Below are positions 37,673 through 38,799 of a stretch of DNA of 64,000 nucleotides, one piece after another; the stretch's first letter is position 1; every line of letters begins with the position of its first letter. Source of the DNA: Candidatus Tumulicola sp. (GTDB lineage: Bacteria; Vulcanimicrobiota; Vulcanimicrobiia; Vulcanimicrobiales; Vulcanimicrobiaceae). The stretch covers positions 620,001 through 684,000 of the forward strand of contig DASXDT010000006.1 in NCBI GenBank assembly GCA_036490475.1, read 5' to 3'. The notes below the pieces were generated by a model that was not told the origin of the DNA, ran no database searches, and was given only the letters and a program-made list of their open reading frames with translations. The translations under genes and the position numbers were made by a program.

Positions 37673-38191
37673 TTACCTCGAGAGTTCTGGTCCGGGTCCG
37701 AACGTCAGGCCGGGAACGAAATGCAGCGCGTAGATGTTCGTTCCATTGACGTCGTAGAGCGGCCAATAGGACGGGATAACATAGGCATCGGCAGCGCGTC
37801 CGGGTTGCACGAGCGCTGCCTTTTGCCGTACCTGCATTCCGTCGATGAGCCAGAATACTCGCGACATCCGCGCGACCATGCTGGTAGTCGCGTCGGCGCT
37901 GACCGCAACATCTTGGATCGCAATCGTTCCAAATTCGCGCCGAGTAATCGTCACAGCGTACGTGGCCGGCACGAGCGAGATAAAGACGAAGTGCCCGGCG
38001 GCGTCGGTGACGGTTTCCTCGCGCTGCGCCGGCGACGTTGCGACGACGGTCGCGCCGGCAACCGGCGCGTGACGTTGATCGGTCACGACACCGCGCAACG
38101 CACCGGTCGTCTCGGCCGAGACAACACCAGTCAAGAATGACGTCGTCAAAGCGACAACGATCGCGCAGAGAGCGCAGCGACGCAGCATCAT
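37673..38191 (-). CDS. secreted carboxypeptidase-regulatory-like protein, copy 1
   Basis: 172 aa; start ATG 38191 overlaps the previous gene's TGA (ATGA). Signal peptide about 1-26. A carboxypeptidase-regulatory-like / Ig-like beta domain (about 28-105: TGALRGVVTDQRHAPVAGATVVATSPAQREETVTDAAGHFVFISL), as found at the N termini of TonB-dependent receptors, but no barrel follows. The C terminus is IPSYWPLYDVNGTNIYALHF then VPGLTFGPGPELSR, shared almost word for word with copy 2. Confidence 0.75.
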   Translation of the reverse strand: MMLRRCALCAIVVALTTSFLTGVVSAETTGALRGVVTDQRHAPVAGATVVATSPAQREETVTDAAGHFVFISLVPATYAVTITRREFGTIAIQDVAVSADATTSMVARMSRVFWLIDGMQVRQKAALVQPGRAADAYVIPSYWPLYDVNGTNIYALHFVPGLTFGPGPELSR

Positions 38192-38700
38192 CGCGAGAGC
38201 GCCGGTCCGGCACCGAATGTTACGCCGGGAATGAAGTGCAGCGCGTAAATGTCGTGCCCATCGAAGCTGTAGAACGGCCACTCCGAGGGGATCGAATACA
38301 CGTCGGAGACGACGCCCGGCCGTACGAAATTCGTCATCAGCCCAGGCCCATCCACCACCACGTGCAGGATCTGCGGGCGCAGCTCGACAGTGAGCCGCGA
38401 TTCGTTGTCGGCACTAATCAACACGGTGCTTCCTGCGTTCTCGTAGCCGTACCGGGATACGCTGACAACGTACGAGCCCGGCGCAAGTGAGACAAAGCAA
38501 AAATACCCACGTGCGTCGGTTGTCGTTTGTTCTTTTTGGACTTCAGATGTAATGGTCACGGTTGCGCCGGCGATCGGTGCCTGCGAATTTGGATGTGAAA
38601 TTCTTACGGTGCCAGCCAGCGCGCCCGTCGTACCGGCAACGCCGGCAACCGGGAGCAACGACGCGACGGCCAACACGGCCGTGACCAGCAAAGCCCTCAT
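38188..38700 (-). CDS. secreted carboxypeptidase-regulatory-like protein, copy 2
   Basis: 170 aa from ATG 38700 (an upstream frame lacks a signal peptide). Signal peptide about 1-22 (LLPVAGVAG). Domain: TGALAGTVRISHPNSQAPIAGATVTITS...DARGYFCFVSLAPGSYVVSVS. C-terminal IPSEWPFYSFDGHDIYALHF then IPGVTFGAGPALSR. Tandem paralogue of the downstream gene, translationally coupled by ATGA. Two secreted stand-alone plug-like domains with the same tail suggest a conserved docking motif. Confidence 0.75.
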   Translation of the reverse strand: MRALLVTAVLAVASLLPVAGVAGTTGALAGTVRISHPNSQAPIAGATVTITSEVQKEQTTTDARGYFCFVSLAPGSYVVSVSRYGYENAGSTVLISADNESRLTVELRPQILHVVVDGPGLMTNFVRPGVVSDVYSIPSEWPFYSFDGHDIYALHFIPGVTFGAGPALSR

Positions 38701-38746: not shown

Positions 38747-38774
38747 AAACGGGCCCGGCAATCGCCGGACCCGC
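38747..38774 (-). terminator. intrinsic terminator of groES-groEL
   Basis: Minus strand: CGGGTCCGGC - GATT - GCCGGGCCCG, then TTTTC; about 10-bp stem with one mismatch, 27 nt after groEL. Confidence 0.9.
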
Positions 38775-38799
38775 TCGAAGCTTCCGTCGGAACGGAGAG

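Follow-up and report, generated by a model that had tools for sequence, protein, structure and literature searches.

Introduction

The closest described systems to the gene pair studied here are the N-terminal parts of Oar- and SusC-type TonB-dependent receptors, for which we draw on the excerpted text of the published papers cited. Oar of Myxococcus xanthus carries a signal peptide, a PF13620 NTE, a linker with a TonB box and a plug; its N-terminal part binds the TonB C-terminal domain in a two-hybrid assay, and secretion is still supported by Oar lacking the NTE (PMC6434023, excerpts). In SusC, a transthyretin/Ig-like NTE (PF13715) is followed by a flexible region with the Ton box; on its own the NTE is folded, and deleting it blocks growth; a part in selecting among several TonBs has been proposed, with the function of receptor NTEs described as not settled (PMC7782687, excerpts).

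P1 and P2, two neighbouring genes in the window (the whole stretch of 64,000 nucleotides analysed), encode proteins that follow the Oar order of signal peptide, PF13620 NTE, linker with box, and plug start, as well as the SusC order of a transthyretin/Ig-like domain with a flexible box region behind it. However, Oar continues to a full plug and a 22-stranded barrel, whereas P1 and P2 end at the plug start (PMC6434023, excerpts); and the SusC NTE is part of a receptor, described on its own only as an experimental product, whereas P1 and P2 are natural stand-alone products (PMC7782687, excerpts). Neither stand-alone NTE proteins nor P1/P2-type proteins were the subject of any paper listed in our literature searches. 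We tentatively propose, with a probability of roughly 0.4, that P1 and P2 are stand-alone NTE modules without a barrel, soluble and periplasmic, whose box and tail would bind TonB or receptors.

Results

A gene pair between groEL and korA

The gene order at the locus is groES-groEL, a hairpin, P2, P1 and korA-korB (groES, groEL and korAB named by eye), with the following features:

38747..38776, minus strand: terminator-like hairpin between groEL and P2
38188..38700, minus strand: P2, putative stand-alone receptor N-terminal module, 170 aa (ORF and PF13620 match; purifying selection in comparison with P1)
38632..38700, minus strand: P2 signal-peptide-like N terminus (highest hydrophobic peak of the protein; cleavage site by eye)
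38380..38613, minus strand: P2 PF13620/transthyretin-like domain (Pfam; AlphaFold)
38287..38337, minus strand: P2 linker box FVRPGVVSDVYSIP (box profile E 6.1e-7)
38191..38292, minus strand: P2 tail, probable plug start, ending GAGPALSR (tail searches, HHalign)
37673..38191, minus strand: P1, putative second module, 171-172 aa (ORF and PF13620; ATGA overlap with P2)
38114..38191, minus strand: P1 signal-peptide-like N terminus (highest hydrophobic peak; by eye)
37865..38098, minus strand: P1 PF13620 domain (Pfam)
37772..37822, minus strand: P1 linker box LVQPGRAADAYVIP (box profile E 2.0e-5)
37676..37777, minus strand: P1 tail, probable plug start, ending GPGPELSR (tail searches, HHalign)

The initial annotation, made on this DNA alone, described two coupled genes for secreted proteins, and these do exist: the ORFs overlap by ATGA, both have signal-like N termini, and each contains a PF13620 domain (Pfam E-values 1e-16 and 1e-15). 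Their overall identity is 45%. Neither has a Pfam match to the plug domain PF07715, only the plug start being found, by profile; both end at 170-172 aa, korA comes next and the 22-stranded barrel is lacking, and by eye no barrel remnant was seen in the 113 bases 3' of P1. The hairpin 3' of groEL is strong and terminator-like (z -3.35 for a 71-base stretch). At three of 30 groEL loci, our own included in the total, groEL is directly followed by korA (G001, G013 and G011), with 15-153 bases from groEL to the first Met of korA; thus, the P1/P2 pair looks inserted there. None of the named neighbour genes in the window is a TonB gene beside the pair, and the TonB_C domain has seven matches over cut-off in the window's genome.

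The shared tail matches the start of receptor plugs

The C-terminal 36 residues, first described as nearly identical, are indeed the best-kept part of the pair, but this wording overstates the likeness, as 24 of the 36 positions are identical (16 of the last 20). When the identity pattern over P1 and P2 was shuffled, an equally good 20-residue stretch arose in 3.6% of the shuffles; therefore, the two proteins alone argue weakly for a special tail, and their relatives more strongly. A tail query against all 7 contigs of the genome (3.3 Mb) found two sites only, P1 and P2, while the whole-protein query matched receptors too, in alignments ending near residue 140. With the A3 profile (four tails, 98 relatives), the window's own short proteins and those of genus g25 came first, followed by dozens of weak matches, most of them at the plug start within frames some 800-1650 aa long; of the weak matches listed, roughly a fifth lie in shorter frames, contig ends among them unsorted. 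The seven-row A4 profile, run at E 1e-4 against 149 genomes of the phylum, listed 12 matches, namely seven short proteins from four genomes plus five frames of receptor size (1071-1231 aa). The receptor matches of the tail profiles lie at the plug start, right behind the PF13620 domain, and the PF07715 plug of two receptors of the same genome covers the tail-equivalent stretch (Pfam).

HHalign aligned the seven short proteins with 47 receptor N termini over 140 columns, reaching the PGV turn (E 7e-34); the receptor rows were chosen by a regular expression requiring D/E-x-Y before PG and an IRG-like strand, and frames lacking this pattern were left out, uncounted. This alignment bears out the earlier description of the pair as plug-like, receptor-derived and barrel-less. 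The tail alone aligned with the plug at E 5e-4 and probability 32, a score reached by none of 100 column shuffles. Because the profiles match mostly receptor plug starts behind the same domain, the P1/P2 tail is, judging from sequence, plug sequence that ends just before the conserved IRG strand. GAGPALSR also has a suggestive resemblance to GAGPTLSIRGG of some receptors.

Spread and selection of the tail-bearing proteins

The seven tail-bearing copies come from 4 of the 149 phylum genomes and belong to two genera: two in the window's genome, two neighbouring genes in G057, two on different contigs in G122 (an assembly with 5% contamination) and one in G048. In the one other genome of the window's genus, the A4 profile did not find the family. 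All seven end in PG-x-x-x-G-x-(G/A)-P-x-(L/M)-(S/M)-(R/H). The dN/dS ratio is 0.37 for P1/P2, a pair with high silent-site divergence, and 0.26 and 0.18 for two G057/G122 pairs. With the tail columns included the seven proteins form one group (support 98/86); with these columns removed they do not (two changes), and one clade is not rejected (p-AU 0.4), so that a single origin of the seven is not proven.

Patterns for P1 and P2 found no relatives in genome_contigs, and viral_contigs held none. The g25 profile matched two Candidatus Eremiobacterota records in genome_contigs, both corresponding to genomes already counted (a G122 protein at 100%, and G057). Three weak matches of the g25 short-protein profile were seen in Sorangium (L110, L111, L112), at 38-41% over part of the query. 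In genus g25, a small lipoprotein-like ORF (LFxxC) lies just upstream of the short genes and is preceded by a GGDEF protein (both named by eye); the ORF is located at L091:10701-11060 (+), with matching ORFs in L062, L092 and L096.

The linker box

The linker box follows the pattern P-G/N-x-T-A-D-V-Y and is retained in P1 and P2 too; the receptor linker, LV(K/R)PGTT(A/S)D(V/I)YSV, resembles both their boxes, FVRPGVVSDVYSIP and LVQPGRAADAYVIP, and that of a second family of stand-alone proteins described below. A 17-position box profile run against the whole genome gave ten sites with E-values of 3.4e-4 or better; the next matches, at 0.5, are noise. The ten sites are seven receptors, P1, P2 and the genome's own second-family protein, and since the profile was built with rows from most of them, the result is a separation from noise and not a discovery. 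The D and Y of the box occur at 47/47 receptor rows, partly by construction of the row choice; the Gly four positions before also occurs at 47/47, which the row choice did not require. The stand-alone rows of the box alignment were cut by an expression requiring Y. The actual TonB box may lie elsewhere in these receptors, TIxxVxxR just after the NTE domain being the rival candidate, and D-x-Y could represent the first plug strand.

Discussion

Stand-alone modules of receptor origin

In the AlphaFold model, blocks across the first 90 mature residues have a pLDDT of 82-96, against 34-44 further on, in the box and tail; these low values are as would be expected of a flexible element, and may also stem from the alignment, which had five rows. 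Foldseek matched transthyretin-like domains, including the SusC NTE (9hfj, rank 50), and a further entry in the comparison with the SusC NTE, 6ytc, is a TonB-dependent receptor.

According to our proposal, P1 and P2 would be paralogous stand-alone modules that correspond to the N terminus of Oar-like TonB-dependent receptors of the phylum and consist of a signal peptide, a transthyretin-like NTE (PF13620), the linker box, then the plug's initial helix with the PGV turn; they would stop before the IRG strand, the shared tail being plug sequence retained as C terminus. With the flexible box and tail they would engage the partners that receptors engage through this region, either a TonB C-terminal domain or the receptors as such, and would act as competitor, adaptor or regulator. 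Receptor ancestry is well supported by the alignments. The barrel is absent, selection is purifying, and both box and tail are retained. From the SusC and Oar background together with the seven TonB_C matches, we infer soluble periplasmic modules that would dock on TonB or receptors as partners and have a regulatory role. That the barrel-less proteins are simple debris is contradicted by the C-terminal motif common to the seven copies, by dN/dS ratios below 1 and by the position of the pair between groEL and korA; we see in them a genuine variant of receptor N termini that has been kept.

A different role, unconnected to TonB, would be that of a transthyretin-like assembly or scaffold factor for a complex in the periplasm or at the surface. 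Small solo proteins of this fold do occur in complexes: the top Foldseek matches include 6hif_Y, from the hydrazine dehydrogenase complex of Kuenenia, and NCBIfam gave a match below cut-off to an anammox S-layer model. This role leaves the retention of receptor box and plug start unexplained, and we regard it as unlikely, if worth keeping in view. Somewhat less credit is due to the view that P1 and P2 are truncated receptor remnants heading for loss, with the tail as leftover plug; every part is receptor-derived and the phylum has few copies, but the dN/dS values of 0.18-0.37, the two intact coupled ORFs, the recurrence of the C-terminal motif in another genus and the lack of a visible barrel remnant in the 113 bases after P1 argue against it. 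A split receptor, in which a barrel without NTE and plug start would be complemented in trans by the module, would fit modules that end inside the plug, but is very improbable considering that FepA's plug is unfolded when isolated (PMC11658791, excerpts). A C-terminal sorting signal for a dedicated secretion system was rejected as main reading and is hardly credible: the tail-to-stop distance is fixed and kept in seven proteins, but there are at most two such genes per genome (two tail sites in this genome, 4/149 genomes with the family), the tail is homologous to the plug, and NCBIfam gave no match to a C-terminal sorting model.

The initial annotation had read the tail as a sorting or docking signal, an idea it would have given up had the tail been found only in these two genes or in the middle of larger proteins. 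The window's own genome has it in these two genes only, other genomes carry it as well, and weaker homologues lie inside large receptors. The sorting half of the idea falls with the evidence above; docking may still hold, but the receptor linker box just before the tail is the more widely kept element.

A second, box-ending family

Another stand-alone family was first seen as a whole-protein match ending SAATSDVYRI. It is present as a single copy in each of 34 of the 149 phylum genomes (12/70 genera), all carriers belonging to the window's family, and constitutes one group in the tree (100/100). All 34 C termini stop at or just past the linker box, with at most three residues after the box Tyr in 32 of them and nine in L171; the Tyr is present in 33/34, having been lost in L225 (direct reading). 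These proteins share with P1 and P2 a signal-like N terminus, a related domain and the same box, but they end at the box without a plug start, have two conserved Cys (12-row alignment), are single-copy and are more widely spread. This box-ending family is a more general and more surprising part of our results than the P1/P2 modules: NTE proteins that naturally lack plug core and barrel, and in 34 genomes have kept the box as C terminus, would offer a small soluble system for studying what NTE and box bind. That the window's bacterial family keeps two kinds of solo NTE, box-ending and plug-start-ending, as dedicated soluble periplasmic TonB or receptor ligands that would tune receptor traffic, a TonB-box-in-trans control, is a doubtful extension of our proposal. 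The copy in the window's genome is as follows:

G000:C4:132680-133111 (L191:4178-4612, minus strand in L191): second-family protein with signal-like N terminus, related domain and box at the end

Its gene is situated between a Crp-like regulator on one side and, on the other, a coiled-coil ORF beyond which come coaD and rsmD (all named by eye).
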